Shown: positions 2,711-63,435 of the stretch, one piece after another
Layout of the letters: each line of letters begins with the position of its first letter
Position numbering within the stretch: position 1 is the first letter of the stretch
Assembly: GCA_016215645.1 (NCBI GenBank)
Contig: JACRIX010000066.1
Coordinates: 1 to 64,000 of the forward strand
Direction of reading: 5' to 3'
DNA from: Rhodocyclales bacterium
Lineage (GTDB): Bacteria > Pseudomonadota > Gammaproteobacteria > Burkholderiales > Rhodocyclaceae
DNA length: 64,000 nt
Program-made: the position numbers and the translations under genes
The notes under the pieces: generated by a model
What the model saw: only the letters and a program-made list of their open reading frames with translations
Databases searched by the model: none
Told to the model about the DNA's origin: nothing

Positions 2711-3181
2711 TCAGGCGCTGCCCAGGGTTCTGCGCCCGGCGCTGCTGTTGCGCTGGCCGTCTGCGCCGTAGGTCGTGGATTCGGCGCCTTCATTCAACAG
2801 GACGTCGAGTGCTTGCTGGTTCTGCTGCAAACGGGCGGCAATCAGCCTGCCGTTGATTTCGTTAGCCTGCTTCGCCTTGGTCGCAAGGTCCAGAATGGAT
2901 GTCCAGGTGGTCCGTGAAGCCTGACTGCCTGCGGCGGGAAGTGTGCCCAGCCAGCGCTCGACCCCGGGGCGACCGGCGGGGTGGTTTTGGGCAGTGAGCG
3001 CGGCATCCAGCTGGGTGTCGAGCTCCGCGAGGCGTGCCGCCAGCGCCGACTTCTGCGCGGTGATTGCCTGCAAGGCATCAACGTCACCCTGGGCCAGGGT
3101 CTGGCGCTCCGCCTCGATGACGACGAGGAATTCCCCGAGCGCGCTGTGGGATGCCTGCAACCGGGACTCGATTGTCGCCAA
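2711..3181 (-). CDS. flgN: Flagellar export chaperone FlgN
   Basis: 156 residues, mostly helical, with conserved weak FlgN family features (long N-terminal helices; C-terminal NEINGRLIAARLQQNQQALDVLLNEG around 110-135). FlgN is the cytoplasmic chaperone for the hook-filament junction proteins FlgK and FlgL, both encoded in this window. It lies 11 bp downstream of flgM in the same direction, the usual flgM-flgN pair. The gene carries one copy of the dispersed 30-bp repeat (3026-3055). It converges on motD across 25 bp in which I see no terminator. Confidence 0.88.
   Translation of the reverse strand: MATIESRLQASHSALGEFLVVIEAERQTLAQGDVDALQAITAQKSALAARLAELDTQLDAALTAQNHPAGRPGVERWLGTLPAAGSQASRTTWTSILDLATKAKQANEINGRLIAARLQQNQQALDVLLNEGAESTTYGADGQRNSSAGRRTLGSA
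3026..3055 (+). repeat. Dispersed 30-bp repeat, copy 1 (inside flgN, antisense)
   Basis: The core CAGCGCCGACTTCTG at 3041-3055 is identical to copies at 12627 and 16491; the 5' half (GCGTGCCGC) matches the family loosely. On the flgN coding strand it specifies the segment QKSALAARL. Confidence 0.65.
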
Positions 3182-3192
3182 GGTGGTCGGGC

Positions 3193-3489
3193 TCAGGGCT
3201 GTCGCTCTTTGCCCAGTTGCTCGCGCGTGCCCTCGATCAGGCGGTCGGCAATCTTTTCCGCATTGATCTGCAATTTTCCGTCCGCAATCGACTGACGGAT
3301 TTCGGCGATGCGCTGGCTGTCGATCGGCGCCGCGGCCGATTCGGTGCCTGGTGCATGGCTCAGTGACAGCGCCGTGCTGCTCTCGACACTGGCTCCCGCC
3401 GCCGGGCCAGGGCCGGCAGGCCGTTGTTGGCGCGTCTTCGACAGACTGACGGTCGAAGGGGGGGTGGAGTCGATTTTCATGATGTGCAC
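3193..3489 (-). CDS. flgM: Negative regulator of flagellin synthesis FlgM (anti-sigma-28)
   Basis: 98 residues, normal for FlgM. It binds FliA and blocks late transcription until exported through the finished hook-basal body. The N-terminus (MKIDSTPPSTVSL after a Met-His-Ile lead) is disordered and low in complexity; the C-terminal half carries the sigma-binding helices (ESAAAPIDSQRIAEIRQSIADGKLQINAEKIADRLIEGTR, about 50-90). ATG at 3489 is used here, although a Met three codons later is equally plausible. A good sigma-28 promoter lies 28 bp upstream (3517-3543), giving the usual feedback loop. Confidence 0.93.
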   Translation of the reverse strand: MHIMKIDSTPPSTVSLSKTRQQRPAGPGPAAGASVESSTALSLSHAPGTESAAAPIDSQRIAEIRQSIADGKLQINAEKIADRLIEGTREQLGKERQP

Positions 3490-3516
3490 CTGCTAAGGGT
3501 TCTGAGCTTGCGAGTC

Positions 3517-3543
3517 ATAACGGCGGATTCGGCCCCGACTTTA
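3517..3543 (-). promoter_or_regulatory. Sigma-28 (FliA) promoter of flgMN
   Basis: On the minus strand TAAAGTCG, then exactly 11 bases, then GCCGTTAT. The enteric sigma-28 consensus is TAAAGTTT-N11-GCCGATAA, so the spacing is perfect and 12 of 16 consensus positions match. It lies just upstream of flgM, whose promoter is a classic sigma-28 target. Confidence 0.75.
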
Positions 3544-3577
3544 GCATTCCATGGCGAAAAGTTGCATCCGGTCGCGT

Positions 3578-4267
3578 TCATTGGCCCACCCGCACCGTGC
3601 CGTCGGCCTGGGCCAGACCGCTGACGGTCTGGCCGGAATTCATGCGAACCTGGACCACCTGGCCGGCAACGGCATTGCCCAGCGCCCTGCCTTCGCCGGC
3701 GACCTGAAAACCGCTGCCCCCGGAGACTACCCGGGTGCTCTGCCCCTGGCGCACCACCACCGGTTTGCGCAGCAGGTCGCTGCGCAAGGGGCGTTCGGCC
3801 GGAAGCGCCACGCTGGCGGTCAGGCCGAGGGCCTGGGCGGTATCGGTCAGGACATTGGCCGGAAGCTCCGCCAGGTCGCCGCGACGAAGGGCCAGGTCGG
3901 ACTCGGAAATTGCCTGTCCCGGGCGCAGCGGGCGGGCGCTGACCACATAGTCGGCGGTAACGTGGATCGCTACCGGTACATAGAGGTTCCAGTTTGCGCC
4001 CTCGGTGCAGCGCGCCTGGACATGGGTGCGCCCCCAGGGCTTGGCACCGGGCGGCATCGACACCGAAATGCTGCGGCAACCATCCGCGATACCGCTGGCG
4101 GCAATGCTACCGATCTCATGGCGGGAAGGCCCCGGCAGGGACGGCGCCTGGCGATCGAGGAAATCCCGGATGGCACGATGGATCGGCTCGCTGTCGGCAG
4201 CGACAGCCGGTGGGGTGTGGCTGCCGGCCACTACCAAGGCAAGCAGGCAAAGCGGGAGGTGTTTCAT
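3578..4267 (-). CDS. flgA: Flagellar basal body P-ring formation chaperone FlgA
   Basis: 229 residues from the ATG at 4267; the upstream extension of the frame lacks family similarity, while this start gives a clean signal peptide (KHLPLCLLALVVAGSHTPPAVAA, residues 2-24). The SAF-type domain at the C-terminus (VVSARPLRPGQAISESDLALRRGDLAELPANVLTD and the terminal GQTVSGLAQADGTVRV) is typical. FlgA is the periplasmic chaperone for FlgI P-ring assembly. It is divergent from flgB, with a 214-bp shared regulatory region, and lies upstream of flgM in the same direction. Confidence 0.93.
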   Translation of the reverse strand: MKHLPLCLLALVVAGSHTPPAVAADSEPIHRAIRDFLDRQAPSLPGPSRHEIGSIAASGIADGCRSISVSMPPGAKPWGRTHVQARCTEGANWNLYVPVAIHVTADYVVSARPLRPGQAISESDLALRRGDLAELPANVLTDTAQALGLTASVALPAERPLRSDLLRKPVVVRQGQSTRVVSGGSGFQVAGEGRALGNAVAGQVVQVRMNSGQTVSGLAQADGTVRVGQ

Positions 4268-4334
4268 TCGATGGATTATCGCAGCTTGCACCCGGCGGTG
4301 ATTTTTGCGGTGGTGATTCCTGGTGTCCGCTGGT

Positions 4335-4351
4335 CCGGCAAGTTTTGCCGG
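4335..4351. promoter_or_regulatory. Palindrome CCGGCAA-GTT-TTGCCGG upstream of flgB
   Basis: Perfect 7-bp arms around GTT in the flgA-flgB intergenic region, about 70 bp upstream of the flgB sigma-54 promoter. The same CGGCAA-N3-TTGCCG core recurs at 13185, 28486 and 30734. Candidate enhancer site for the FlrC activator (inference). Confidence 0.55.
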
Positions 4352-4423
4352 AACCACAGTCCGTCTTGCCGCCTACTTGCCGAAATCGCCCCCGTTGCCC
4401 GTATCAGAAGGGATTTCTGGCTA

Positions 4424-4439
4424 TGGCATGGTTGGTGCA
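4424..4439 (+). promoter_or_regulatory. Sigma-54 promoter of the flgB operon
   Basis: TGGCATG-GTTG-GTGCA matches the sigma-54 consensus TGGCACG-N4-TTGCA with GG and GC in correct register and two mismatches. It ends 42 bp before the flgB ATG. Confidence 0.8.
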
Positions 4440-4481
4440 TCAGCTAGCTCGGAGCAACCAATCGAGCCATCGAACACCATC

Positions 4482-4886
4482 ATGAACGACAGATTCGGCG
4501 AACATCTCACGGTCCAGCGCAGCGCACTGAGCATTCTCGTGCAACGTCAGGAAATGATCGCCTCGAATATCGCCAATGCCGACACGCCTCATTACAAGGC
4601 GCGTGACATTGACTTCAAGGAAGCCCTGGCGAACCGCCTGGCCGGTCGTCGCGAGCAGAACCTGAGCCTGGCGCGTACCAGTCGCGGCCACCTGGGTGGT
4701 GCCGCCGATCCCTCGATGCCGGCCTCGATGAAGTATCGCAATGAATTTCAGCCGGGCGTCGATGGCAACACGGTGAATATGGATGTGGAGCGTGCGGCCT
4801 TTGCCGAAACCGCGCTGCGGCTTGAGGCGGCGCTGACCTTTGTGCGCGGCAGCCTCAAGGACCTGCAGACCGCAATGAGCCAGTAA
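4482..4886 (+). CDS. flgB: Flagellar basal-body rod protein FlgB
   Basis: 134 residues from the ATG at 4482, chosen because the upstream frame is non-homologous and contains the promoter. FlgB is the proximal rod subunit in the periplasm. The N-terminal rod signature (VQRQEMIASNIANADTPHYKARDIDFKEAL, about 19-48) and the C-terminal helix (NTVNMDVERAAFAETALRLEAALTFVRG) are intact. First gene of the long flgBCDEF-flgE2-GHIJKL run; 8 bp to flgC. Confidence 0.96.
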   Translation: MNDRFGEHLTVQRSALSILVQRQEMIASNIANADTPHYKARDIDFKEALANRLAGRREQNLSLARTSRGHLGGAADPSMPASMKYRNEFQPGVDGNTVNMDVERAAFAETALRLEAALTFVRGSLKDLQTAMSQ

Positions 4887-4894
4887 GGACGATC

Positions 4895-5296: not shown

Positions 5297-5314
5297 TTCC
5301 AAAGGAGCAGAAAA

Positions 5315-6004: not shown

Positions 6005-6016
6005 GCGGAGAAGATC

Positions 6017-7303
6017 ATGGGATTCCAACAAGGCCTCGCCGGACTGAATGCCTCCTCGAAGGCGCTCGACACCATCGGCAACAACATCGCCAACGCCAGC
6101 ACCATCGGCTACAAGACCGGCTCGACCCAGTTCGCCGACGTCTTCGCGGCTTCGCTCTCGGGTGCCGGCGCGGCACCGGTCGGCCTCGGCACCAAGGTCT
6201 CGGCCGTGGTCCAGCAATTCACCCAGGGCAGCATCGGCGTGACCAGCAATCCGCTCGACATCGCCATCAACGGCGGCGGCTTCTTCCAGATGGACGACGG
6301 CAACGGCGCCACGGTGTATAGCCGCAACGGCCAGTTCCAGCTCGATCAGTCGGGTTACATCGTCAACAGCAACGGCCTGCAACTGAAGGGCATCATGGCC
6401 AGCATGGGCGTGATTTCGCAGGGTTCGCCGGCCGTGCCGCTGCGCCTGTTCGACCCCACGCAAAGCCTGGCGGGACCTCCGCAGGCCACCGGCGGCAGCC
6501 CCGGCAACACCGGTGTCGACGTCAACGTCAATCTTGATGCCCGGCTGGGGTCGCCCTCGGTAGCACCGTTCGATTTCAACAATCCGTCGTCGTACAACCA
6601 ATCGACCGCGATCACGACCTACGACAGCCTGGGCAATGCCCATACCTATTCGATGTACTTCGTCAAGACGGCGGCCAACACCTGGGATGTGTATTCGACC
6701 GTGACCAACCCGGCCGGCGCCTCCCCGACCTTCACCGACCTGTCGGGCGGCGGCAAGCTCGGCACCATGACCTTCGACCAGTCCGGCAACATCACGTCGC
6801 CGTCCTTCAACGCCAGCATCACCGCCGCCGAGCTCGGATACGCCGGTGCCGTCAATGCCCTGTCCTTCCCGGTGAATTTTGCCGGCTCGACGCAATTCGG
6901 TTCCAGCTTCTCGGTCAATGCCATGGTTCAGGACGGCTACGGCTCGGGCACGCTGGCGGGCTTCAACGTCGGTCAGGACGGCACCATCCTCGGGCGCTAC
7001 ACCAATGGCCAGACGGCCGTGGTCGGACAGATCATTCTTGCCGCCTTCCGCAACGCGCAGGGCATGCAGCCGCTGGGTGACAACGTCTGGGCGCAAACAC
7101 CGGGCAGCGGCGACGCCATCGCCGGGGTTCCGGGATCGTCCGGCCAGTACGGTGTGCTGCAGTCCGCCGCCCTCGAAGAGTCGAACGTCGATCTGACGGC
7201 CGAACTGGTGAGCATGATCACCATGCAGCGTTCCTATCAGGCGAATGCGCAGACCATCAAGACCCAGGACAGCATCCTGCAAACCCTGGTGAACCTGCGC
7301 TAA
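6017..7303 (+). CDS. flgE: Flagellar hook protein FlgE
   Basis: 428 residues, normal for a hook subunit. N-terminal rod signature (GLAGLNASSKALDTIGNNIANASTIGYK, about 6-33), central FlgE D2 insertion (about 150-330) and C-terminal polymerisation helix (SNVDLTAELVSMITMQRSYQANAQTIKTQDSILQTLVNLR). It occupies the standard place after flgD with a GGAG ribosome site, so it is taken as the main hook protein. A paralogue lies at 8151-9482. Confidence 0.96.
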   Translation: MGFQQGLAGLNASSKALDTIGNNIANASTIGYKTGSTQFADVFAASLSGAGAAPVGLGTKVSAVVQQFTQGSIGVTSNPLDIAINGGGFFQMDDGNGATVYSRNGQFQLDQSGYIVNSNGLQLKGIMASMGVISQGSPAVPLRLFDPTQSLAGPPQATGGSPGNTGVDVNVNLDARLGSPSVAPFDFNNPSSYNQSTAITTYDSLGNAHTYSMYFVKTAANTWDVYSTVTNPAGASPTFTDLSGGGKLGTMTFDQSGNITSPSFNASITAAELGYAGAVNALSFPVNFAGSTQFGSSFSVNAMVQDGYGSGTLAGFNVGQDGTILGRYTNGQTAVVGQIILAAFRNAQGMQPLGDNVWAQTPGSGDAIAGVPGSSGQYGVLQSAALEESNVDLTAELVSMITMQRSYQANAQTIKTQDSILQTLVNLR

Positions 7304-7330
7304 GAGTCGGCGCTGACGACACGGCGATCG
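7301..7330 (-). repeat. Dispersed 30-bp repeat, copy 2 (flgE-flgF junction)
   Basis: Reverse complement reads ATCGCCGTGTCGT followed by CAGCGCCGACTCTTA. The copy begins on the flgE stop codon and fills most of the 37-bp flgE-flgF gap. It is the only copy that is essentially intergenic apart from the weak one at 19367. Confidence 0.7.
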
Positions 7331-7340
7331 GGACGACAGC

Positions 7341-8093: not shown

Positions 8094-8097
8094 TTCT

Positions 8098-8113
8098 TGG
8101 CATGTCCCTTGCA
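8098..8113 (+). promoter_or_regulatory. Sigma-54 promoter of the second flgE
   Basis: TGGCATG-TCCC-TTGCA departs from the consensus TGGCACG-N4-TTGCA at one base (T for C), with correct register. It starts 5 bp after the flgF stop and ends 37 bp before the ATG at 8151, so it lies inside the flg operon. Confidence 0.82.
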
Positions 8114-8150
8114 GTTGTTGGCGTGAACGAATTTTCCGAAGGATAAGAAA

Positions 8151-12193: not shown

Positions 12194-13132
12194 ATGAGCT
12201 CCGACCTGACTGGCGCCAACGTCCTCGACAACGGCCGGCTTGCTGCGCTCAAGCGGCAAGCCAGGGCCGGCGACCCGGCGGCGGCGAAGGAAGTCGCGAG
12301 GCAGTTCGAGGCGCTGTTCATGCAGATGGTGCTCAAATCGATGCGCGACGCCGTGCCGCGCGAAGGCCTGTTCGACAGCCAGGCGTCGCGGCTCTACGAA
12401 TCGCTGCATGACCAGCAGTTGAGCCTGCAACTCGGCGGTGGGCGCGGCCTGGGTCTGGCGGCGATGATCGAAAAGCAGCTGACCCGTGAAATTTCGCCGG
12501 CGACGCCCGCACTCGGCCCCTTGCCGCTGCGCCGCGCGCCGACCGGACTGCCGCTTGATGCAAAGCTGCGTGGGTTTTCCTTGCCGCCTGCCGCGGCGCC
12601 GGAAAGCGGAAAAATCACCGTACCACCAGCGCCGACTTCTGCGCCTGCCGCCGGTGCGAGTGCGGCGCAGCGTGCGTTTGTCGATCGGCTGATGCCAGCC
12701 GCGATGGACGCCGAACGCCAGACCGGGGTGCCCGCGCATTTCATGGTGGCGCAGGCGGCACTCGAAACCGGCTGGGGACGGGCCGAACCGATGCGGGGCG
12801 ACGGCAGATCCAGCCACAACGTCTTCGGCATCAAGGCCGGCCGCCATTGGCAGGGGCCGACGGTCGAAACCCGGACGACGGAAGTTATTGCCGGTCTGGC
12901 GCAGACCCGAGTCGAACGCTTTCGCGCCTATGGCTCCGACGCGGAGGCTTTTGCCGACTACGCCAATCTCCTGGCGGACAATCCGCGGTACGCCGCGGTG
13001 CTCGGAACCCGCGAGCCGCAGCAGTTCGCGCGCGGCCTGCAAGCCGCCGGCTATGCCACCGACCCCGGCTACGCCAACAAGCTTGAGCGCATCATCGGCG
13101 CCACCGCGCTGCGCCAGACACTACCGACCTGA
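12194..13132 (+). CDS. flgJ: Flagellar rod assembly protein / muramidase FlgJ
   Basis: 312 residues in two parts: an N-terminal rod-cap domain (about 25-105; AAKEVARQFEALFMQMVLKSMRDAVPREGLFDSQASRLYESLHDQQLSLQL) and a C-terminal glucosaminidase domain (about 155-305; FMVAQAALETGWGR holds the catalytic Glu). It caps the growing rod and opens peptidoglycan. The two-domain form is typical of beta- and gammaproteobacteria. The Pro/Ala linker between domains carries a copy of the dispersed 30-bp repeat (12612-12641), encoding ITVPPAPTSA. Confidence 0.95.
   Translation: MSSDLTGANVLDNGRLAALKRQARAGDPAAAKEVARQFEALFMQMVLKSMRDAVPREGLFDSQASRLYESLHDQQLSLQLGGGRGLGLAAMIEKQLTREISPATPALGPLPLRRAPTGLPLDAKLRGFSLPPAAAPESGKITVPPAPTSAPAAGASAAQRAFVDRLMPAAMDAERQTGVPAHFMVAQAALETGWGRAEPMRGDGRSSHNVFGIKAGRHWQGPTVETRTTEVIAGLAQTRVERFRAYGSDAEAFADYANLLADNPRYAAVLGTREPQQFARGLQAAGYATDPGYANKLERIIGATALRQTLPT
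12612..12641 (+). repeat. Dispersed 30-bp repeat, copy 3 (flgJ linker)
   Basis: AAATCACCGTACCAC followed by CAGCGCCGACTTCTG; it encodes part of the interdomain linker of FlgJ. Confidence 0.7.
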
Positions 13133-15180: not shown

Positions 15181-16476
15181 ATGCGAGTCAGCAGCTCAAT
15201 GATCTTTGATACGGGCGCCAGCGGCATTTCGCGCCAGACCTCGGCCCTGCTCAAGGTGCAGCAGCAGTTGTCCAGCGGCCGGCGGATCCTTGCGCCCGGC
15301 GATGATCCGGTCGCCGCCGCGCGCGCGCTCGACGTGTCGCAGGCCAATGACGTGGTCAACCAGTTTGCGAAGAACCAGGACTCGGCGATGGGCATGCTGG
15401 GCCTGGAAGAAGTGCATCTGTCGCATGCCGAGGATCTCCTGCAGCGCGTCCATGAACTCGCCGTGCAGGCGGGCAGCACCAGTCTGACGGCAGCGGCACG
15501 CAAGGGCATCGCCACCGAACTGCGCGGCACCTTTGACCAGTTGCTGGGCATCGCCAACAGCAAGGATGCTTCCGGCAACCACGTTTTCGGCGGCTTCAAG
15601 AGCGACACCATTCCCTTTGGCGGCTCGATCGATGCGCTGATTGCCGGCGGGGAAATCGACTATCAGGGCGACGAGGGGCAGCGCGAACTCCAGGTTTCCG
15701 GCAGCCGCTACATCGCCATCAGCGATTCCGGCCTCGACGTGTTCCGGCGGATTCCCAATGGCAACGGTTACTTCGCCACCGACTACGCCGCCGGCAACAC
15801 CGGCACGGCGACCATCAATGCCGGATCGATCAGCGACCCGGCGGCCTGGCGCAATTCGGCGACCCAGGAGGTCGAGGTCCGGTTTTCCATCAACGCCGGC
15901 GTGACCACCTACGACCTGGTCGATACCGCCAGCGGAAATTCGCTGCTGACCGGCGGTGCCGCGCCGGCGGCGGTCGGCAGCCAGCGTGCCTACCTTTCGG
16001 GCCAGCCGATCACTCTGAAGTCCCAGGGCGTGGAACCGGCCTTCGATCTCGGGGGCAGTATTGCCATCACCGGTGCGGCGGCCGATGGTGACCGCTTTGC
16101 GCTCGCACCGAGCAGTTCGCAGAGCGTGTTTGCCTCCGTGGCCAAGCTGGTCGGCGCGCTCGAAGCCGGCGGCACCACGCCCGCCGCCGATGCGCGTTAC
16201 ATCAGCGATATCCGCGCCGGGCTGGCCAACATTTCGCAGTCCCTGGAAAACGTGGTGCGCGTGCGGGCAGCGGTGGGGACACGAATGAACGAAATCGAGT
16301 CGCTGCAAACCATGGGCGGCGAGCTGAGCCTCCAGTACCAGCAGACATTGTCCGAACTACAGGATGTCGATTACGCCGAGGCGATAACCGAAATGACGCG
16401 CCGGCAAGCCGAACTGGAAGCCGCCCAGCAGTCCTTCCTCCGCGTTTCCCAACTTTCATTGTTCAGACTGCTATGA
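15181..16476 (+). CDS. flgL: Flagellar hook-associated protein 3 FlgL
   Basis: 431 residues. Flagellin-like N-terminus (MRVSSSMIFDTGASGISRQTSALLKVQQQLSSGRRILAPGDDPVAAARALDVSQAN) and C-terminus (EIESLQTMGGELSLQYQQTLSELQDVDYAEAITEMTRRQAELEAAQQSFLRVSQLSLFRLL). Second junction protein between hook and filament. Strong GGAGG ribosome site 8 bp before the ATG. Its stop overlaps the start of the next gene by 4 bp (ATGA). Confidence 0.96.
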   Translation: MRVSSSMIFDTGASGISRQTSALLKVQQQLSSGRRILAPGDDPVAAARALDVSQANDVVNQFAKNQDSAMGMLGLEEVHLSHAEDLLQRVHELAVQAGSTSLTAAARKGIATELRGTFDQLLGIANSKDASGNHVFGGFKSDTIPFGGSIDALIAGGEIDYQGDEGQRELQVSGSRYIAISDSGLDVFRRIPNGNGYFATDYAAGNTGTATINAGSISDPAAWRNSATQEVEVRFSINAGVTTYDLVDTASGNSLLTGGAAPAAVGSQRAYLSGQPITLKSQGVEPAFDLGGSIAITGAAADGDRFALAPSSSQSVFASVAKLVGALEAGGTTPAADARYISDIRAGLANISQSLENVVRVRAAVGTRMNEIESLQTMGGELSLQYQQTLSELQDVDYAEAITEMTRRQAELEAAQQSFLRVSQLSLFRLL

Positions 16477-16967
16477 AAACACCGTCCCACCAGCGCCGAC
16501 TTCTGGCATCGGCGGCCCTCCTGCTCGGACTTGCCGGCTGCGGTGCCATGAACTATCCGGGCGCAACCGGCCTGAGCGGCGAATTCCCGGCCCAGGGTCC
16601 GATCATTCCGGACACCACCCTGGTCCTCAGCAAATCGACGCAGATCCCCCTGGAAAAGATGGTCTCGTGGGGACTGTACGCCGGCGCCGCCTGGCTGATC
16701 ATCGATCCGCTGGCGCCCAACTGGGAAATCGAGCAAGCCAGTTTTCCCGATCAGCATTTCCATCTGATGCTCAAGATGAAGCGCGTCTATTCCGGCGGGG
16801 CAGGCGAGGCCCGCATGGTGTTCCAGCAACGCGCCAAGGAATTGATGCGACAGAACGGCTACGACGGGTTTGCCATCATCGAATACAACGAAAGCCTGGA
16901 ATCCTCGGTGCTGGGCTCGCAGCGCATTGCACGGGGCGTGATCCAACTGACGCGGCGTGCCGGCTAG
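16473..16967 (+). CDS. Predicted lipoprotein translationally coupled to flgL
   Basis: 164 residues. Starts inside flgL (ATGA overlap). Signal peptide with lipobox LAGCG (Cys at about 23), then a hydrophobic stretch (WGLYAGAAWLIIDPLAP, about 65-81) and a C-terminal alpha/beta region (HFHLMLKMKRVYSGGAGEARMVFQQRAKELMRQNGYDGFAIIEYNESLESSVLGSQRIARGVIQL). I do not recognise a characterised family. The coupling to flgL and the shared sigma-54 transcript imply a role with, or timed with, the hook-filament junction, or an outer-membrane accessory. Codons 2-10 contain a dispersed-repeat copy (16476-16505). It is followed by a strong hairpin. Confidence 0.8.
   Translation: MKTPSHQRRLLASAALLLGLAGCGAMNYPGATGLSGEFPAQGPIIPDTTLVLSKSTQIPLEKMVSWGLYAGAAWLIIDPLAPNWEIEQASFPDQHFHLMLKMKRVYSGGAGEARMVFQQRAKELMRQNGYDGFAIIEYNESLESSVLGSQRIARGVIQLTRRAG
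16476..16505 (+). repeat. Dispersed 30-bp repeat, copy 4 (lipoprotein signal peptide)
   Basis: AAAACACCGTCCCAC followed by CAGCGCCGACTTCTG. It is read here in a different frame from the flgJ copy, encoding KTPSHQRRLL. Confidence 0.7.
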
Positions 16968-19366: not shown

Positions 19367-19380
19367 AAGCGCCGACTTAT
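19367..19380 (+). repeat. Dispersed repeat, copy 5 (core only)
   Basis: AAGCGCCGACTTAT in the fliN-fliO gap shares only the 10-base core with the other copies and lacks the 5' half. The weakest member. Confidence 0.4.
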
Positions 19381-21582: not shown

Positions 21583-22878
21583 TCAAGCGAAGACATCGAC
21601 CATGCCGCGACTGCGCGATGGCTGCCAGGCGGTTCCCGAGCCCGGCGGCAGGCCAGGGGCCGCACTCGACTCCCGGCGTGATCCATTGCCCTGGCGCGCA
21701 TCGCCCTCCGGCTTCATGAACGGCGCGTCACGGCTGGAGTCGCGCCCGACGTGGGTTTGCCCGAGGTTGATGCCGGACTCCGCCAGTGATTCGCGCAGGC
21801 GGACCAGGGACTCTTCAATGGCCTCGCGCACCGCCTGATGGGGCGAGGCAAAGCTGGCATTGACCTCGTCGCCCTGGACCACCAGGGTGACTTCGATGCG
21901 ACCGAGATCCGGCGGATTGAGCACCAGATCGGCCTGCTGGCGGGTATGGGTGACCATCCAGCCGAGCTTCTGGTCGACTTCCTGCGCCCAACCGGTTTGG
22001 GCGAACGGGGTTGCCACGCGAAGCTGTACCGGCACGGCGCTGTTCTGTTGGGACGGCGCCTGGAACGGCACCTGGAACGGCACCTGTGGCGGTGTCGCCT
22101 GGGGCGCGATGTTTCCGGCATGGTCTGGCAGCCGATCCGACCGGGGGCGAAACTCGACGGTGGCATCCGGCATGTCGCCTGCTTCGGCAGAAATTGCCGT
22201 GCTGGCGGCAAACTGTGCCTGCTTGGTCGGTGCATGACCAACGACTTCCGTCAAGGTGGGCATGGGGCGGTCGGTGCTCGGGGCGGGCGTCGGCAAACGG
22301 TGTTCCTGGGCCTTGGCTGCTGCAAGAGTCGGCGCTGGCGGTACGGCGCCGGCGACAGCCAAAGGGCCTGGCGATGCCGGTCGACTGATGGTTGAGGCGG
22401 ACAGCGCCAGCGGGATTGCCGGCGCCGCCAGTAGCGGTGCATCCGCCAGCGGAGCGCCGGCCGGAGGCAGCGCAGGCAAGGCTTGTCCCGCGGCTTCCGC
22501 GGGTACACCACGGCCTTCCGCCACGGCGGACACTGCCGGCAGGGTGGCTTGCACGGCAGCAGGGTCGTCGCGCGTGAGTTGGGCAAGAAGGTGTGGCGTC
22601 GAGGGATTCTCGGACGGCAGCGGAATGCCGGTCATGACGGCCAGGAAGGAGAAGTCTTCCTGGGCGACTTGCGGCCGCGTGTCGTCGGCGGTTTCGTCGG
22701 TTGCCGACGCGGACGTGGGCGTCGCTTTCGATTTCAGTACCTCGGCAAAGCTGCGTGGCGAGCTGTCGCCGTCGGCTTTGATGCCGGTCGCTTCCGGCAC
22801 GGCCCGGCCTTCGTCGCCACGACTTGCGGTCGGCGCCGGAGTTACGGTCAGCTGGGGGATGGTGATTGCTTCGGACAT
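21583..22878 (-). CDS. fliK: Flagellar hook-length control protein FliK
   Basis: 431 residues. Long Pro/Ala-rich N-terminal ruler region, then the C-terminal Flg_hook domain (about 280-380; GWAQEVDQKLGWMVTHTRQQADLVLNPPDLGRIEVTLVVQGDEVNASFASPHQAVREAIEESLVRLRESLAESGI). FliK measures hook length and switches export specificity. The ruler contains a 12-bp tandem repeat (22049-22084). Between fliJ and fliL. Confidence 0.93.
   Translation of the reverse strand: MSEAITIPQLTVTPAPTASRGDEGRAVPEATGIKADGDSSPRSFAEVLKSKATPTSASATDETADDTRPQVAQEDFSFLAVMTGIPLPSENPSTPHLLAQLTRDDPAAVQATLPAVSAVAEGRGVPAEAAGQALPALPPAGAPLADAPLLAAPAIPLALSASTISRPASPGPLAVAGAVPPAPTLAAAKAQEHRLPTPAPSTDRPMPTLTEVVGHAPTKQAQFAASTAISAEAGDMPDATVEFRPRSDRLPDHAGNIAPQATPPQVPFQVPFQAPSQQNSAVPVQLRVATPFAQTGWAQEVDQKLGWMVTHTRQQADLVLNPPDLGRIEVTLVVQGDEVNASFASPHQAVREAIEESLVRLRESLAESGINLGQTHVGRDSSRDAPFMKPEGDARQGNGSRRESSAAPGLPPGSGTAWQPSRSRGMVDVFA
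22049..22084 (+). repeat. 12-bp tandem repeat in the fliK ruler region
   Basis: TGGGACGGCGCC, TGGAACGGCACC, TGGAACGGCACC: two identical units and one with two changes, in frame, encoding VPFQ VPFQ APSQ on the minus strand. Confidence 0.75.
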
Positions 22879-29776: not shown

Positions 29777-31140
29777 GCATTCTTGTCGTCGAGGACGACG
29801 AAGCACTGCGCGATGCACTGCAGATCACCCTTGAAACCGCCGGCCACGAGGCCGATGTCGCCGACGGCGGACCGGCGGCGCTGGATGCCCTGAAGCGCAG
29901 GGGCTACAACATGGTGGTGTCGGACTTGCGCATGAGCCCGATGGACGGGCTTGCGCTGCTGGGTGAAATACGCAACCGCTTTCCCGGTCTGCCGGTGCTG
30001 CTGATGACGGCCTTCGGCGATGTGGACAAGGCGGTATCGGCCATGCGCGGCGGCGCCTGCGATTTCATGCTCAAGCCGTTTGAACCCAGAGCCCTGCTGC
30101 AGCAGATCGAGCGCTATGCCACGCCGCCGGCCCCGGCCGCCGGCGTGGTCGCCGTCGATGCCAAGACCCGCGCCACGCTCCTGCTGGCATCGCGCGTCGC
30201 GCGTACCGATGCCACGGTGATGCTGACCGGCGAATCGGGCGTGGGCAAGGAGGTATTTGCCCGCTACATCCATGAGCAATCCGCGCGTTCCGGCGGCCCT
30301 TTCGTCGCCATCAACTGCGCCGCGATCCCGGACAATCTTCTTGAGGCCACCCTGTTCGGCCACGAAAAGGGGGCGTTCACCGGCGCACAGGTGGCTCAGG
30401 CCGGCAAATTCGAACAGGCCAACGGCGGGACCCTGCTGCTCGATGAAATTTCCGAGATGCCGCTGGGTTTGCAGGCGAAACTGCTGCGCGTGCTGCAGGA
30501 GCGCGAAGTGGAGCGTGTCGGTGGCAAGAAGCCGGTGCCGCTGGATATCCGCATCCTTGCGACATCCAATCGCGATATGGCGGCTGAAGTTCGCGCCGGC
30601 CATTTCCGCGAGGACCTGTATTACCGCCTCAATGTGTTTCCGCTGGAAATTCCCTCGCTGCGCGAGCGTCCCGGCGACATCGTGCCGCTGGCGCGCAAGA
30701 CCTTGGCGCACCTTGCCGCTGCAACCGGGCGGGCGGCAAGATTTGCCGCCGGGGCCGAACAGCGGCTGCAAACCCATGCCTGGCCAGGAAATGTCCGCGA
30801 ACTGGAAAACGTGGTGCAGCGCGTACTGATCCTTGAGGCCGGCGCCCTTATCGAGGCGGACGCCTTGCCCTTGCCCGATGCCGCCGCCACCGTGCCCTTA
30901 CCCGAACCGTTGCCACCGTCGGGCGTTCAAATCGCCGTGCCGCCAGCGCCGACTCCTGTGGCGACAGGCGCTGCCGACATGAAGACCCTGGAGCGGCAAC
31001 ATATCCAGGATGTGCTCGCCCGCGTCGGCGGGTCGCGCAAGAAGGCGGTGGCCATCCTCGGCATTTCCGAACGCACCCTGCGCTACAAACTCAACCAGTA
31101 TCGGGCCGAGGGATTTGCGATTCCCGGCGACGACGATTAA
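29761..31140 (+). CDS. flrC: Sigma-54-dependent flagellar activator FlrC/FleR
   Basis: 459 residues: receiver (1-120; Asp55 in MVVSDLRMSPMDG), AAA+ sigma-54 interaction domain (about 130-370; Walker A GESGVGKE 157-164, GAFTGA loop 204-209, RLNVFPLEIPSLRERPGDI) and Fis-type HTH (about 410-450; GGSRKKAVAILGISERTLRYKLNQY). The intact GAFTGA loop means it can activate sigma-54, matching the five sigma-54 promoters in the window. The Pro/Ala linker before the HTH holds a dispersed-repeat copy. Confidence 0.95.
   Translation: MSEKLSILVVEDDEALRDALQITLETAGHEADVADGGPAALDALKRRGYNMVVSDLRMSPMDGLALLGEIRNRFPGLPVLLMTAFGDVDKAVSAMRGGACDFMLKPFEPRALLQQIERYATPPAPAAGVVAVDAKTRATLLLASRVARTDATVMLTGESGVGKEVFARYIHEQSARSGGPFVAINCAAIPDNLLEATLFGHEKGAFTGAQVAQAGKFEQANGGTLLLDEISEMPLGLQAKLLRVLQEREVERVGGKKPVPLDIRILATSNRDMAAEVRAGHFREDLYYRLNVFPLEIPSLRERPGDIVPLARKTLAHLAAATGRAARFAAGAEQRLQTHAWPGNVRELENVVQRVLILEAGALIEADALPLPDAAATVPLPEPLPPSGVQIAVPPAPTPVATGAADMKTLERQHIQDVLARVGGSRKKAVAILGISERTLRYKLNQYRAEGFAIPGDDD
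30734..30748. promoter_or_regulatory. Palindrome CGGCAA-GAT-TTGCCG inside flrC
   Basis: Fourth CGGCAA-N3-TTGCCG site, here with arms extended to 8 bp (GGCGGCAA/TTGCCGCC). It lies about 405 bp upstream of the fliE sigma-54 promoter, within the AAA+ coding region. Enhancers can act over such distances, but chance in a GC-rich gene is possible. Confidence 0.35.
30929..30958 (+). repeat. Dispersed 30-bp repeat, copy 6 (flrC linker)
   Basis: AATCGCCGTGCCGC followed by CAGCGCCGACTCCTG; it encodes IAVPPAPTP between the AAA+ and HTH domains. Confidence 0.75.
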
Positions 31141-40873: not shown

Positions 40874-42235
40874 TCATTGGGCGGCTTGCCGCAATTCCAT
40901 GATTGTCGATTCCAGGCGCGCCGCCATTTCGCCGAGCAGGTCGCGGTTCTGGCGTCTGGCCTGGCGTGCCGCGATGAACAGTTCGTAAAGCGGCGATCCA
41001 AACAGGCGGTGCAACTCGCTCTCGATCCGTGACAGACGGGCGCGCAGGCACTGTAGCTGTGCATGAAGCAGGGAGGCACCCGGGTCGCCGCCACCGCGCC
41101 GGTTGGCCGCTTGCTCCTGCCACAGCGAGGCGATTTCGCGCAGGCTGGCGGTGTCGCCGTTGCGGTAGGCACGGTTGGCCTCGCTCATGAGCCGGGTGCG
41201 CCAGGCCCGGTCGTCTGCGTCGATGGCCCGGTCCGGATGGATCTGCTGCGCAAGCCGGCGAAACATCTGCTTGGTCTCGCTGTCCGGGTTGAAGGCGGGC
41301 GCATCCGGTGCCAGGGCTTCGGTGAAGCGACCGGCATCGGAAGCGGATTCTTCCGCCTGATCACGACTTGCCGCGGCCTCCGCCTGCAAACCGGGATCGT
41401 TCGGTGCATGCGCCGCCTTGCGTGCGGCCACGCCGGCCTGCAAGGCGTCAAGCGTCGTCATCAGGCTGCCGACTCGCCGGTAGTAGTCACGCATGAATTC
41501 GGCCAGTTCGCCCTGTACGCTGGCCAACTCCAGTTCGAGGTCGGCAATGTCCTGCGTGAGGCGGGTACGCTCGAGCAGGAGGCGTGCGGTTTCTTCCGTC
41601 AGGGCAAGCTTCCTGCTGCGGCTCGGCGCTATCGGGATACCCAGCCGCAGCAGTTTCGCGACATCGGCATTCAGGTCGGCAGGCGCGTCGCACCGGTAAA
41701 GCAGGGTGATCGCGTCTGGCCGCGCAGATGCCGTTGTCCATGCGGCTACCGGCAGGATCAGTGCCGGAAACACTGCCGCGAAGTCGATGCGAACGGAATG
41801 GTCGTCGCCTGGCGGCGCGATCCAGGCCTGCGCTTCGCGCCAGGGCCCCGGCATGGCATCGAGGCGTCGGCGCAGGGCCGTCCAGGATGGGGTGTGGCTA
41901 TCCTCGCCGTCCCGCCAGAGCCGGCTCTTGAGCAGGGACAGCGTCGCCCGCAGGGCGATGCCGACGGCAAAATCGGCGTGCGGCAACACCAGACAGAGCG
42001 GGCGGATGGCGAGGTCCAGCGCATTCGACAACTCGGGCAGGAGCGCGTCGTCGGGGACCAGGATCAGCAGTTCATGGCCGTCGGCCAGGGCCAGGGCGAC
42101 CAGCGCCGCGATGCATGCCATGGGCTGCGCGGGCAGTTCGGCTTCATGGGGCATGGACGCGCGGCGCGGGCCGGCGACATGGGCATACCAGATCCCGGCT
42201 ATCTCATCGGGATAGTCCGGGTCCGCTGCCGGCAC
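40874..42235 (-). CDS. Uncharacterised protein with C-terminal J-domain-like segment
   Basis: 453 residues. Residues 1-210 form an alpha/beta region with no family I recognise, 212-275 is predicted coiled coil, and about 318-362 reads as a DnaJ-type segment with His333-Pro-Asp (FRRLAQQIHPDRAIDADDRAWRTRLMSEANRAYRNGD). A second helical coil follows (390-450). It starts 5 bp after the cheA stop and so is probably the last gene of the che operon. The HPD tripeptide is what stimulates Hsp70 ATPase; whether this protein does so is unproven. Confidence 0.72.
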   Translation of the reverse strand: MPAADPDYPDEIAGIWYAHVAGPRRASMPHEAELPAQPMACIAALVALALADGHELLILVPDDALLPELSNALDLAIRPLCLVLPHADFAVGIALRATLSLLKSRLWRDGEDSHTPSWTALRRRLDAMPGPWREAQAWIAPPGDDHSVRIDFAAVFPALILPVAAWTTASARPDAITLLYRCDAPADLNADVAKLLRLGIPIAPSRSRKLALTEETARLLLERTRLTQDIADLELELASVQGELAEFMRDYYRRVGSLMTTLDALQAGVAARKAAHAPNDPGLQAEAAASRDQAEESASDAGRFTEALAPDAPAFNPDSETKQMFRRLAQQIHPDRAIDADDRAWRTRLMSEANRAYRNGDTASLREIASLWQEQAANRRGGGDPGASLLHAQLQCLRARLSRIESELHRLFGSPLYELFIAARQARRQNRDLLGEMAARLESTIMELRQAAQ

Positions 42236-44150: not shown

Positions 44151-45071
44151 TCAGAAGCCCAGGCTTTCCAGCAGGTCATCGACCTGCGTCTGGTTGGCGA
44201 CCACGTCGTGGCCGGCGGTGCCGCCGATGACCGGGCCGTTGAGCAGGCCACCGGGGGCTTCCGCCTTGCGTTCGGCCGGCATGGCCTCCAGCAGCACGGC
44301 GAGCAACTGCGATTCGAGTCCCTGCACCAGTTCGACGATCTTCTTGATCACCTGCCCGGTCAGGTCCTGAAAGTCCTGGGCCAGGATGATTTCCATGAGT
44401 TGGTCGTTGGTCAGCGTGAGTTGTCCGGGGGCTTCGGAGAAATAGCCGCGGGTATCGTTGGCCAGTTGCTTGAACTCGTCGACCGACAGCTGGTTGGCGT
44501 ACATGCTGTCCCAGCGCTGCGACAGCGCTTTGGAGCGGGTGATCAGACCGTCCTGGATCGGCTTGGCGATGTCGGTGGCATTGAGCACCCGCGAGGCGGC
44601 CTGCTCGGTCATCCTGGCGATGTAGGCCAGGCGGTCGCGGGCATCGGGGATCTGGCGCGCCGAATCCTCGATCAGCTTGTCCATCCCCAGGCCGCGCAGG
44701 CTGTCGTGCAACTGCCGCGCCAGGTTGCCGAGGCGGTTGAAGACCACCTCCGGGTCGTTACTCCCGGGAGTCGGCGCTGGCGACACGGCGATTGCGGGCG
44801 CTGCCGCCCGGCTGACGCTGTCGAACAAGGCCTGCAGCTCGTCGTTATCCCCTGCGGACGGGTTCGCCGCAGGCGCGGCAGCCGGGGGCGGTGCGAGGGT
44901 GGCCGCCACGCTGTCGAACAAGGCCTGCAAATCATCGGAATCACCTGCCGTATCAATGGCTGGTGCGGGAATTGGCCTGGCGGCCGGCGCGGCCGTGGCG
45001 GCGACACTGTCGAACAGGGCTTGCAGGTCGTCGGAGTCCTGGCCGTCGTCGTGCGTGCTGGGAAGGGTCAT
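44151..45071 (-). CDS. cheZ: Protein phosphatase CheZ with triplicated N-terminal motif
   Basis: 306 residues against a usual 210-220. The C-terminal two-thirds is ordinary CheZ: four-helix bundle with catalytic region ILAQDFQDLTGQVIKKIVELVQGLE and the CheY-binding tail QTQVDDLLESLGF. The first about 90 residues instead hold three near-identical units of D-[DE]-L-Q-A-L-F-D-S-V (residues about 14-25, 44-55, 74-85) spaced by Ala/Pro linkers. Each unit resembles the CheY-binding tail in pattern. CheZ dephosphorylates CheY-P at the receptor or pole. Confidence 0.93.
   Translation of the reverse strand: MTLPSTHDDGQDSDDLQALFDSVAATAAPAARPIPAPAIDTAGDSDDLQALFDSVAATLAPPPAAAPAANPSAGDNDELQALFDSVSRAAAPAIAVSPAPTPGSNDPEVVFNRLGNLARQLHDSLRGLGMDKLIEDSARQIPDARDRLAYIARMTEQAASRVLNATDIAKPIQDGLITRSKALSQRWDSMYANQLSVDEFKQLANDTRGYFSEAPGQLTLTNDQLMEIILAQDFQDLTGQVIKKIVELVQGLESQLLAVLLEAMPAERKAEAPGGLLNGPVIGGTAGHDVVANQTQVDDLLESLGF
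44765..44794 (-). repeat. Dispersed 30-bp repeat, copy 7 (cheZ linker)
   Basis: Reverse complement reads CAATCGCCGTGTCGC then CAGCGCCGACTCCCG; it encodes AIAVSPAPTPG after the third cheZ unit. Confidence 0.72.
44818..45040 (-). repeat. Three direct repeats of about 33 bp in the 5' part of cheZ
   Basis: Units at about 44818-44850, 44908-44943 and 45004-45040 share TGTCGAACAAGGCCTGCA plus a variable GTCGTC stretch (plus-strand reading). They are spaced 90-95 bp apart and encode the three LQALFDSV motifs. Confidence 0.8.
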
Positions 45072-57728: not shown

Positions 57729-57732
57729 GGTG

Positions 57733-59268
57733 CTAGCGCTTCCTGGCCAAAATCGGCGTGGCGTCAGCGCCGACTTTGAAGAACTCCATGAGCTCCTGGA
57801 GTTGCGCTGCCTGGCCGCCCATCTCTTCGGCGGTGGCGGCGAGTTCCTCGGACGCCGAGGCATTCTGCTGGGTGACCTGGTTCAGTTGGCCCATGGCGCC
57901 GTTGATCCGGCTCACGCCCGACAGTTGCTCCTGGCTGGCGGCAGCAATCTCCTGCACCAGACCCGAGGTCTTGCGAATCGTGGGCACCATTTCGTCGAGC
58001 ACGCGACCGGCCCTTTCCGCCGTGTTGACGCTGGTCGTGGCGAGTTGCCCGATTTCCTGCGCCGCCACCTGGCTGCGTTCGGCAAGCTTGCGCACTTCGG
58101 CGGCAACCACCGCAAAGCCCTTGCCATGCACGCCGGCGCGCGCCGCTTCGATTGCGGCGTTCAAGGCCAGCAGGTTGGTCTGGTAGGCAATGTCGTCGAC
58201 GATGCCGATCTTGTCGGCGATGGACTTCATGGCATCAATGGTGTCTTTCACCGCCGCGCCACCCTGTTCGGCCTCGGCGGATGACTGGGTGGCCATGTTG
58301 TCGGTGACTTTGGCGTTTTCGGTGTTTTGCGTGATGCTGACGGTCATTTGCGCCATCGACGCTGTCGTTTTTTCCACCGCCGCCGCCTGTTCGGACGATG
58401 CCGTGGACAGCATCTGCGCGGTCGCCGAGACCTGCTGCGAGGAGTTCACCAGAACGTCCGCGCTTTGCCTGACCTCGCCGATGATGCGGGCCAGGGCCTC
58501 ACTGGTTTTGCGGATCGCGAACAACAAGCTGCCGTGGTCACCTTTGGGCAGTACGATGTCGTCGCTCAGGTCACCGTCGGCGAGGCGGTGCATCACCTCG
58601 ACGGTGTAGGCGGGCTCGCCGCCGAGCACACGACGGAGGAAGCGCTGGATGGCGAACGCCAGCAATGCCAGCAGGGGCAGGGAGACGAGTGCGGCAATCA
58701 ATGCGCTGGTCTGCACGAAAGAGCGAGCGGCAACGTCGACCTTGTCGAGCTTGATCTGCATGCTGACGGCGCCGAGGACGGTTCCTTCCGCGACCTGGTG
58801 GCAGGTGGTGCAGTCCTTGCCGAGGTAGTTTTTCAACGCCAGGATGGGGGTGACGACGTGCAGATAGTTGCCGTTCTTCCCGTCCTGTTCCTCGTGCGCA
58901 GTGACTTTGCCGCTGGCGAGCGCCTGCTTTTCCAGCGCGTCCGGAACGTGGTCCTTGACGGTCCCGGGGCCAAACACCTTGATCAGGGATTCGCCGCGAA
59001 TCACCTTGAGCTTGCGCAGGACCGTCAGCTCCTGGATCTGGTCAAGGAATACATCGCGTTGGCCGATGCTGCCGGTGATCATCATGCCGGTGAGACCGGC
59101 CATGGTCATCTCGTGGATGCTGGTGGCGACGTCGCCGGCCTGCTCGATGGCATTGGCCCGATTGATGCGGGATTGCCAGGTGATGGTTCCCACCAGCACC
59201 AACACCAGCATCATCGATACCAGCGCCGCGAGGCGCATCCAGACGGGAATCGCGGCAGGGCGGTTCAT
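57733..59268 (-). CDS. Chemoreceptor with periplasmic heme-c binding domain
   Basis: 511 residues. Helices at about 11-30 and 187-208 enclose a periplasmic domain containing Cys153-Thr-Thr-Cys156-His157 ([12 protein letters not shown]), a c-type heme attachment motif followed by [10 protein letters not shown], as in Tll0287-like/DUF3365 heme-PAS folds. Then HAMP-like region and MCP signalling hairpin ([47 protein letters not shown]). A redox, oxygen or NO sensor for taxis is likely. The C-terminal tail holds a dispersed-repeat copy and no CheR-docking pentapeptide. Confidence 0.9.
57750..57779 (+). repeat. Dispersed 30-bp repeat, copy 8 (3' end of heme receptor gene)
   Basis: AAATCGGCGTGGCGT followed by CAGCGCCGACTTTGA, antisense to the gene; on the coding strand it gives the tail [10 protein letters not shown]. 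Confidence 0.65.
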
Positions 59269-59285
59269 GGCAAATCCACTTGTCC

Positions 59286-61175: not shown

Positions 61176-61204
61176 GGTTCTTCCTGACGTGCTGGTTCGG
61201 CGGA

Positions 61205-61768
61205 TCAAACTCCGGCGGTGGTTTGGGCGCCGCGGTCGGATACCGTGGCCAGCGTGGCGATCTCGTCGACCGAGAGCACCTTCTGGATGTCGAGGATGAT
61301 CACGAACTTGCCGGCGATCTTGCCCATGCCGGCGATGAAGTCGGCGCGGATCTTGGCGCCGAAGCTGGGTGCCGGCTCGATGTCGGCGCTGGACACTTCC
61401 AGCACCTCGGACACGGCATCGACCACGATGCCGATGTCGTGGTGCTCGTCCTCATGCACCAGCTCGATGATCACGATGCAGGTCCGGCGCGAGGTCTCGG
61501 TGGTGCGGCCGCCGAAGCGGGCCGAGAGGTCGATCACCGGCACCACGCTGCCGCGCAGGTTGATCACGCCGCGGATGAAGGCCGGCATCATCGGGATCTC
61601 GGTGAGCTGGCCGTACTCGATGATCTCCTTGACGTTGAGGATGCCCACCGCGTACATCTCGCCGGAGAGCAGGAAGGTCAGGTACTGCTGAATATCCACC
61701 GCGCTGCCGGTGACGACCGTCGGCGGTTTTCCGCGCACGGCGGGGGCTTGCTGAATGACTTGTCCCAT
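61205..61768 (-). CDS. cheW: Chemotaxis coupling protein CheW
   Basis: 187 residues, slightly longer than the usual 150-165 because of an N-terminal extension (about 1-24, MGQVIQQAPAVRGKPPTVVTG). The SH3-like core (YLTFLLSGEMYAVGILNVKEIIEYGQLTEIPMMPAFIRGVINLRGSVVPVIDLSARFG) is canonical. It links the receptors of this operon to the second CheA encoded just upstream. The 29-bp gaps on both sides are consistent with one operon. Confidence 0.96.
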   Translation of the reverse strand: MGQVIQQAPAVRGKPPTVVTGSAVDIQQYLTFLLSGEMYAVGILNVKEIIEYGQLTEIPMMPAFIRGVINLRGSVVPVIDLSARFGGRTTETSRRTCIVIIELVHEDEHHDIGIVVDAVSEVLEVSSADIEPAPSFGAKIRADFIAGMGKIAGKFVIILDIQKVLSVDEIATLATVSDRGAQTTAGV

Positions 61769-61797
61769 GATGGGTCTCCTTTGTCGGGTCGGCGGAT

Positions 61798-63435
61798 TTA
61801 GAAGCGCTCGAAATCGCCTTCGGTGGCAGGGGACGCCTGGCGGGCCGGGCGTGCCGCGGTGCGCGGGGCGGCGACGGCCACGGTAGCGGCCGGACGGGCC
61901 TTCTTCGCCGTGCTGCCAGCGCCGACTCTTGCCTGCGATTCAATCTTGAAGAACCCCATCAGTTCCTGGAGTTGCGCCGCCTGGCCACCCATTTCCTCGG
62001 AGGTGGCCGCCAGTTCTTCGGAGGCACTGGCGTTCTGTTGCGTAGCCTTGTTCAGCTGCCCCATCGCGCCATTGATCTGGCCCACGCCCTGGCTTTGTTC
62101 CTGACTTGCCGCGGCGATTTCCTGAACGAGGTCCGAGGTCTTCTTGATGCTGGGCACCATTTCGTCGAGCAGCTTGCCGGCCTGCTCGGCCATCTTGACG
62201 CTGGAGCCGGCGAGTTGCCCGATCTCCTGTGCGGCAACCTGGCTCCTTTCGGCCAGCTTCCTGACTTCGGCGGCGACGACGGCAAAGCCCTTGCCGTGTT
62301 CGCCGGCGCGGGCCGCTTCGATCGCGGCATTCAGCGCCAGCAGGTTGGTCTGGTAGGCGATGTCGTCGATGATGCCAATTTTGCCGGCGATGGACTTCAT
62401 GGCCTCCACCGTGTCCTTCACCGCCGTGCCGCCCTGTTCGGCTTCGACCGAGGACTGGGTGGCCATGTTGTCGGTGACCTTGGCGTTCTCGGTGTTCTGG
62501 GTGATGGAAGCGGTCATCTGTTCGATGCTGGCGGTGGTTTCTTCCACCGAGGCGGCCTGCTCGGAACTCGATTGCGAGAGCGACTGCGCGGTGGCGGACA
62601 CCTGGCCGGCGGCGTTGGCCAGCGCATCGGCCGCGCCCTTCACTTCGCCGATGATCTGGTTCAGCTTGGCAATCAGGCCTTGCTGCGCGGTGAGCATCTG
62701 GCCGATTTCGTCAGTGCTGACATTGTCGATGCGAACCGTCAGGTCGCCGTCCGCCATGCGTTGGGTAAGCCCCAGCGCCTCATTGACCGGACGGGTGATG
62801 CTGCGCGTGATGAAAAAGGCCAGCAAGGCGCCAAGTACAAAGGCGGCGAGCGCCAGGCTGATGATCAGGGTGCGTGTTTCGTTCGCCAGTTTCTCGGCAT
62901 CGTTTCCCAACTGCTTCGCCACTTCGGTCTGGAAGGCGATGAAATCGTTACCGGCCTTGGTGAAGTTGTTGAAGGCCGGTCGGTAGGTGTCATTGAAGAC
63001 TTTCAGTGCATCGGCCCAGTTACTTGCCTTGATGTGCTCCTCGAGCTTCAAGGAACTGGCCACGTAGGGCTTGCGCGTCTCGAATACCTGTTCCAGGGTG
63101 GCCTTGCCCTTATCGCTGAATTGCATGCCCTTCAGTTTCTCCAGCGTAATACCGACCTCCTTGCGCGTTTCTTCGGCACGTGCCATTTCGGTTCGAGTCA
63201 CGTCGTCGCTTTGGGCAATCAGCATGTTGCGATGAAAGCGGCCGACGCGATTGATGTTGATGATGGCGGAGTTGGCCAGTTCGGTCTTGACGTTCTTGTC
63301 GGTCACAAGGTCTTCGATTTCCCTGTCCAGATCATTGACGCGCAGTACGCCAATGGTGGCAACGGCGGCCAGCAGCAACAGGATGATGGCAAAGCCGATG
63401 CCAAGACGGACGCCGATTTTTAGCTGATTTAGCAT
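61798..63435 (-). CDS. Chemoreceptor (four-helix-bundle sensor) with C-terminal tether
   Basis: 545 residues. Helices at about 8-32 and 188-212 flank a periplasmic 4HB_MCP-type domain; HAMP about 213-265; methylation helices and signalling tip ([44 protein letters not shown]). After the signalling region comes an Ala/Pro/Lys-rich tether of about 35 residues ending in DFERF, which fits the x-[FWYH]-x-x-[FWYH] pattern of CheR-docking pentapeptides (NWETF-like). The other two receptors of this operon lack it. Confidence 0.93.
61902..61931 (+). repeat. Dispersed 30-bp repeat, copy 9 (receptor tether)
   Basis: TTCGCCGTGCTGC followed by CAGCGCCGACTCTTG, antisense to the gene; it encodes the start of the flexible tether ([12 protein letters not shown]). 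Confidence 0.68.

Follow-up and report, generated by a model that had tools for sequence, protein, structure and literature searches.

A dispersed element of about 26 bp in Rhodocyclaceae genomes as a candidate DNA uptake sequence

The stretch of DNA analysed here (the window) comprises 64,000 nucleotides from a Rhodocyclales bacterium (assembly GCA_016215645.1, contig JACRIX010000066.1) and carries, among others, flgE, flgF, flgJ, cheZ, a fliK-like gene and two chemoreceptor genes. The nearest relatives of its FlgI are found in betaproteobacterial, Rhodocyclales and Sulfuritalea bins, and from such named relatives the genus is probably Sulfuritalea. Dispersed over the window is a short repeated element with the core AGCGCCGACT, which is considered below as a candidate DNA uptake sequence (DUS). 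This repeat family had been described in an earlier note and is real: 10 cores occur in the window compared with 0.27 expected, and a count of 10 was not attained in any of 100 dinucleotide shuffles. An Rfam scan of the window at gathering thresholds gave no match to a known RNA element.

Copies in the window were scored with a profile built from 163 copies outside it. The family here consists of nine exact copies, scoring between 26.8 and 38.9 bits, and one degenerate copy at 41917; ten order-2 simulations of the window produced no score above 14 bits. Five of the exact copies lie between or outside Pfam domains. These are found between the two domains of flgJ (12616..12641, plus strand, 33.4 bits; residues 48–95 and 168–302, core near codon 145), ahead of the CheZ domain in cheZ (44765..44790, minus, 37.2 bits), between the AAA lid and HTH_8 of an NtrC-type regulator, which the earlier note called FlrC (30933..30958, plus, 36.7 bits), and antisense in the C-terminal tails of the two chemoreceptor genes (57754..57779, plus, 31.3 bits, and 61906..61931, plus, 36.7 bits; MCPsignal ends at residue 483 of 511 and 482 of 545, respectively). 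Another precedes the Flg_hook domain in the fliK-like open reading frame (ORF) at 21583–22878 (22323..22348, minus, 36.7 bits). The remaining three are located in the flgE–flgF gap (7301..7326, minus, 38.9 bits), at the start of ORF 16473–16967, which has no Pfam match (16480..16505, plus, 28.8 bits), and antisense within a flgN-like gene, ORF 2711–3181 on the minus strand (3030..3055, plus, 26.8 bits, exact core). Most copies thus sit in weakly conserved places, as had been proposed, but not all, because the core at 3042 is inside the FlgN domain. The degenerate copy (41905..41930, plus, 27.5 bits) has the core AGAGCCGGCT and an intact 5′ half. One further exact core, at 19368..19377 (plus), agrees with the 12-base 5′ half at a single position and is regarded as a chance core, since it scores below 14 bits and also retains its G in relatives of the A dialect described below. 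The nine places listed earlier were correct to within one base (3042 rather than 3041, and 7305–7314 on the minus strand rather than 7306), and eight of them are genuine elements; 19368 is not, and the core at 22327–22336 (minus) had been overlooked.

A sequence logo constructed from 40 copies in the window's own genome and 55 in a closed relative, G002, shows a non-palindromic motif of about 26 bp, CGCCGTNYCGYC-AGCGCC[G/A]ACT-YTTG. Informative positions extend from −12 to about +12, reading CGCCGTNYCGCC-AGCGCCGACT and then a pyrimidine/T-rich tail, with uninformative outer flanks. A longer consensus had already been noted and holds for most copies, but the 5′ half abuts the core directly, and the consensus read with a 4-base spacer has no matches. 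Over 1.12 Mb of G002 the cores separate into two classes, and 146 of 162 match at least 9 of the 12 consensus bases of the 5′ half, compared with 1.2% of random positions. The core is the most over-represented 10-mer of this sample (162 versus 8.5 expected), as is its A form in a sample of G028, and elements occur at a density of about 1 per 7 kb. HIP1 of cyanobacteria is a short palindrome; like the element, it is an over-represented genome-wide word whose counts differ between relatives, but the element is long, and a HIP1-like palindrome, one of the kinds suggested in the earlier note, was rejected because the logos are asymmetric over about 26 bp.

The genome-wide count, set beforehand as a test that could refute the family, was far from random, with 479 exact cores in the window's genome compared with 29 for the reversed word. 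Across 31 genomes of the same genus, exact cores numbered 124–665 in 27, 92–114 in three and stood at background in G017 (43 versus 45 reversed), and 30 genomes of other genera compared alongside were near their reversed-word controls. In a wider set of 249 genomes from the family, apparently Rhodocyclaceae, CCAGCGCCRACT was clearly enriched in 28 (70 to 550 copies), all of which belong to 6 of the 68 genera; the other 221 contained at most 27 copies. Two genomes inside carrier genera are without the motif, namely G017 (25 copies of CCAGCGCCRACT) and G319 (4 copies), and the over-represented 10-mers of a G017 sample included no obvious replacement word. Named carriers include the Sulfuritalea bin UWPOB_SULF1 (502) and a Rugosibacter bin (215 in 2.1 Mb versus 7 reversed), with Rhodocyclaceae UBA2250 a weak one (75 versus 14). 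That such counts could stem from the base composition or codon choice of GC-rich genes is scarcely credible. The word and the genomes are indeed GC-rich, but in those genomes the reversed word, with its identical base composition, remains scarce, most of the 68 genera lack the motif, cores occupy five strand/phase classes with an intergenic excess, and the 5′ half is bimodal; the 5′-half classes, together with the in-place dialect switches described next, already bring this explanation near refutation. Chance or codon usage was likewise rejected on the dinucleotide shuffles and reversed-word controls.

Three genomes of the genus carry a one-base variant of the core, AGCGCCAACT (the A dialect), in 407, 483 and 504 copies, compared with 4–26 in the other 28. 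The G/A difference is found in place at aligned orthologous copies: window 7305 versus L035, window 16492 versus L035 and L038, L016:1501 versus G001 and G028, and L176:19188 versus G028, and, with one further change, L164:1312 versus G001 (L035, L037 and L038 are equated with G028, G017 and G016 from identical counts). The element at 16480..16505 is retained in L032, L033, L036, L039, L040 and L041. Cores without the 5′ half do not switch: 19368 is still G in A-dialect genomes, and one AACT core is still A in the window's own genome, so that such cores serve as a built-in control by which elements are told apart from accidental matches. Many further orthologous sites are substituted or gapped across dialects. 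In a first cross-dialect set, 46 alignments at 12 of 76 sites gave 21 with the other dialect, 17 substituted, 6 gapped and 2 the same; a second, of 64 alignments at 37 of 122 sites, gave 21, 20, 11 and 12, respectively, with all 12 of the latter being the 19368 site or its orthologues. Alignable loci are few, and these alignments include the same loci several times. The A dialect is probably derived, because G cores with the 5′ block occur in two other genera, represented by G203 (6 of 7 GACT cores in the sampled sequence) and G225 (all four).

The claim that constraint acts on the DNA rather than on the encoded protein was borne out by both conservation and placement. Core identity was 0.95 compared with 0.73–0.77 in the flanks, and was higher at 9 of 9 alignable loci (P=0.004), or 8 of 8 without 19368; usable alignments came from 9 of 40 query loci, one of them being 19368. 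In the window plus 400 kb of G002, the 42 genic cores comprise 19 sense and 23 antisense and occupy 5 of 6 strand/phase classes. In the same DNA, 23 of 65 cores (35%) are intergenic compared with 11.8% of the sequence (P=7e-7), where genes were called by a simple codon-usage script, the 65 cores include chance cores, and the element at 16480..16505 was counted as intergenic because the script picked a later ORF start. Strands are balanced in 1.12 Mb of G002 (79+/83−). Spacing is more even than random in the window's genome (coefficient of variation 0.72 versus 0.91, P=0.004; 86 gaps from the first 100 genome places minus three singletons, plus nine window copies, with contig C24 included and 19368 left out), and copies are under-dispersed among 20-kb regions of G002 (47 regions with GC of 0.61 or more, P=0.008). 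Orientation relative to replication, a check suggested in the earlier note, showed no bias in G002 (39+/42− versus 31+/36−, P=0.87). Chi and KOPS (FtsK-orienting polar sequences) are about 8 bp, strand-biased and skewed in orientation with replication, and both were rejected on this absence of replichore skew. An intracellular recombination or repair signal of the Chi kind would account for an abundant, genome-wide word, yet the length of about 26 bp and the strand neutrality make it improbable.

Inverted pairs of copies 38–40 bp apart are rare, with two in 1.12 Mb of G002, both between genes, and one in contig C11 of G000. All three form hairpins of 23–25 pairs with 3–4-base loops (−46 to −56 kcal/mol), and in one of the two G002 hairpins a variant base in one arm has its complement in the other. 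By their predicted folding, these pairs resemble intrinsic terminators made up of two facing tags. The scattered copies and their perfect inverted pairing also recall repetitive extragenic palindromic sequences (REP), bacterial interspersed mosaic elements (BIME) or miniature inverted-repeat transposable elements (MITE), and a tiny mobile repeat spreading by insertion had been among the earlier suggestions. Single copies are non-palindromic, however, and two that were folded did so weakly (−4.7 and −5.7 kcal/mol). Comparison of orthologues, proposed in the earlier note as a way of seeing copies come and go as insertions, instead showed mainly substitution in place; the alignments, which cover few loci and are gapped in some cases, contained no clean insertion of 26 bp. 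Since an in-place dialect switch would in addition take hundreds of coordinated changes, a mobile repeat was rejected, and we consider this origin very improbable.

A 40-kb stretch of G002 at 1.90–1.94 Mb (L171, L405) contains no copies compared with about 5.8 expected; this stretch and a low-GC island (L389) were chosen after both were seen to be copy-free. The 40-kb stretch encodes TraN, TraU, TraI_2 and TraG_N (genes of an F-type type IV secretion system, T4SS) as well as HipA, PARG-like and McrBC proteins, and from this gene content is probably a conjugative element. None of seven 10-kb segments with GC below 0.58 contains a copy, and one copy-free low-GC region carries metabolic genes.

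Many of these features can be compared with known systems. The neisserial DUS is the 12-mer ATGCCGTCTGAA, and the gonococcal genetic island has an F-type T4SS. As with the DUS of Neisseriaceae, the element occurs in hundreds of dispersed copies on both strands, with single-base dialects between relatives. The available part of PMC3630211 describes neisserial uptake sequences as paired, terminator-like inverted copies, resembling the intergenic pairs found here, and in the portion of PMC7371117 consulted the DUS is absent from the gonococcal island, as the tag is from the F-type T4SS element. Differences are equally clear. The Rhodocyclaceae tag is unrelated in sequence, matching neither the 12-mer nor the CTG core that neisserial dialects share according to the same part of PMC3630211; it is longer (about 26 versus 12 bp) and belongs to another family. 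Moreover, neisserial DUS is read by the minor pilin ComP, whereas no ComP-type receptor and mostly no canonical ComEA were found here. The uptake signal sequence (USS) of Pasteurellaceae carries a weaker extension beside its core. It is similarly an abundant both-strand motif with a strong core and weaker extension, present in coding DNA, but where the USS has A/T tracts the Rhodocyclaceae element has a GC-rich block on its 5′ side, and the Pasteurellaceae belong to another class of Proteobacteria.

We therefore favour, as somewhat better than an even bet, that the element is a DUS maintained by transformation-driven molecular drive, because its abundance, strand neutrality, in-place single-base dialects, tolerance-limited placement and terminator-like pairs, along with the copy-free conjugative island, in combination correspond to what known uptake sequences show. 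To our knowledge, no other class of element has all these features together. An uptake-sequence element was also among the kinds named in the earlier note and is the one that best fits. Of this scheme, uptake itself, its receptor and the molecular drive are inferred. In such a system, a double-strand tag of about 26 bp scattered over the chromosome would be bound at the cell surface by a receptor for DNA, a type IV pilin being the likeliest candidate, leading to preferential uptake of own-kind DNA for homologous recombination. New copies would arise by point mutation at tolerant places, and tagged alleles, being taken up and recombined more often, would be kept and spread. A one-base shift in receptor specificity in some lineages, followed by the copies, would then give rise to the A dialect.

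Several observations weigh against an uptake sequence. Element density climbs with GC (Spearman 0.43), which could reflect composition, and the tag is about ten times sparser than neisserial DUS, for which the portion of PMC7371117 consulted gives 1 per 400–1100 bp. Dialect switching is incomplete: the orthologue of L023:1501 in A-dialect G001 (L122) retained G, and of the five GACT cores that 0.4 Mb of A-dialect G028 contains, four are genuine elements with the 5′ half. The 5′ half is conserved above its flanks at 6 of 9 loci, which is not significant (P=0.25). Viral DNA also carries the element. A 36.5-kb prophage contig of G007 (C106) has 3 copies, near host density, two of them in its terminase and portal genes (L382:12172–16491; minor head and endolysin genes are also present), and at least 120 IMG/VR stretches contain the 22-mer, with all 133 matches having G. 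Around that 22-mer, 4 of 10 scanned viral ORFs matched PHROG families, and further cores on the same contigs occur at 3.6 per 100 kb, compared with 13.8 in G002 and 1.1 in the reversed control. As a prophage marker, terminase PF03237 was found in 1 of 31 genomes.

The competence machinery is the main obstacle for an uptake sequence. ComEC, present in 22 of 23 genus genomes searched, and type IV pilins, present in 12 of 12, speak in its favour but do not discriminate, and a search of the assembly that contains the window, which is 79.6% complete, did not find ComEC. Among motif-bearing genomes, only 2 of 19 (both of genus g88) have ComEA-like HHH_3 matches over cut-off in frames shorter than 400 amino acids, compared with 3 of the 5 motif-less genomes, G017 among them; frames of about 800 amino acids that also match HHH_3 are presumably Tex-like. 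G017 has three such over-cut-off matches in frames of 181–314 amino acids (C104, C111, C80), and the motif-bearing genus members searched are without them. ComP_DUS (PF16732) occurs in 55 of 61 genomes and GspH pilins in 24 of 24, motif-less genomes included in both cases, so that ComP_DUS is no marker. In a regular-expression scan of clusters, no pilin among the matches listed was present in G002, G018, G028, G203 and G225 yet absent from G017 and G319. Two pilins of G002 or G018 have no match in G017, but they likewise have none in most other carriers.

Even spacing, a long asymmetric motif and the rarity of ComEA among carriers would all suit the best rival to an uptake sequence, namely a binding site of an intracellular chromosome-organising protein (a factor in nucleoid structure, segregation or replication) that would benefit from evenly placed sites across the genome and whose changes the dialects follow. 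We consider this unlikely. G002 shows no orientation or ori–ter pattern, hairpin pairs and prophage copies are not what such a site predicts, the motif has been lost from G017 and G319 with no obvious replacement in the G017 sample, and hundreds of sites at tolerant gene positions require a spreading force.

Other repeats were seen in passing. A CRISPR-like array in G001 (stretches L121–L130) has 49 copies of GAGGATTGAAAC / GTTTCAATCCTC in 177 kb. In G002 (L161–L180, L384–L419), a second over-represented word family, AATCTGCGAAAT / AGATTTCGCAGA, with 17 copies each in 1.12 Mb, is perhaps another small repeat, and AGAGGCGCAGAG-type repeats are over-represented in both G002 and G017. Among viral contigs, L207:885–2218 holds five elements in 1.3 kb, four spaced exactly 316 bp apart, which looks like a tandem duplication multiplying the tag, and at L213:408–1517 an element lies within a viral reverse-transcriptase gene.

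Returning to the uptake sequence, the part of PMC12616744 consulted states that such systems are confined to Neisseriaceae and Pasteurellaceae. Searches for literature linking DNA uptake sequences with Rhodocyclaceae, or uptake sequence with Sulfuritalea, found none within a scope that mostly excluded subscription journals and preprints; a four-term query including Betaproteobacteria found nothing, and among the matches listed for the 10-mer no title concerned uptake sequences. Taken with the two-family statement, these empty searches make the element a new candidate system. Its mechanism is of a known kind; its sequence, length, family and the apparent scarcity of ComEA are new. Whether environmental Rhodocyclaceae possess an uptake-sequence system that evolved independently as the third of its kind, spanning at least six genera, with a GC-rich tag of about 26 bp in at least two dialects, missing from G017 and G319 and lacking canonical ComEA in most carriers, we judge to be evenly balanced. 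In such a system, the lack of canonical ComEA from most carriers would imply a receptor and periplasmic carrier unlike those of Neisseria and Haemophilus. If true, the Rhodocyclaceae would be the third bacterial family with tags for 'self' DNA. A third case, in environmental bacteria, would permit comparative tests of the origin of tag and receptor, of dialect switching and of loss, with the G/A split within one genus and the motif-less G017 and G319 as natural experiments for receptor identification, and it would indicate frequent natural transformation where this was unsuspected.

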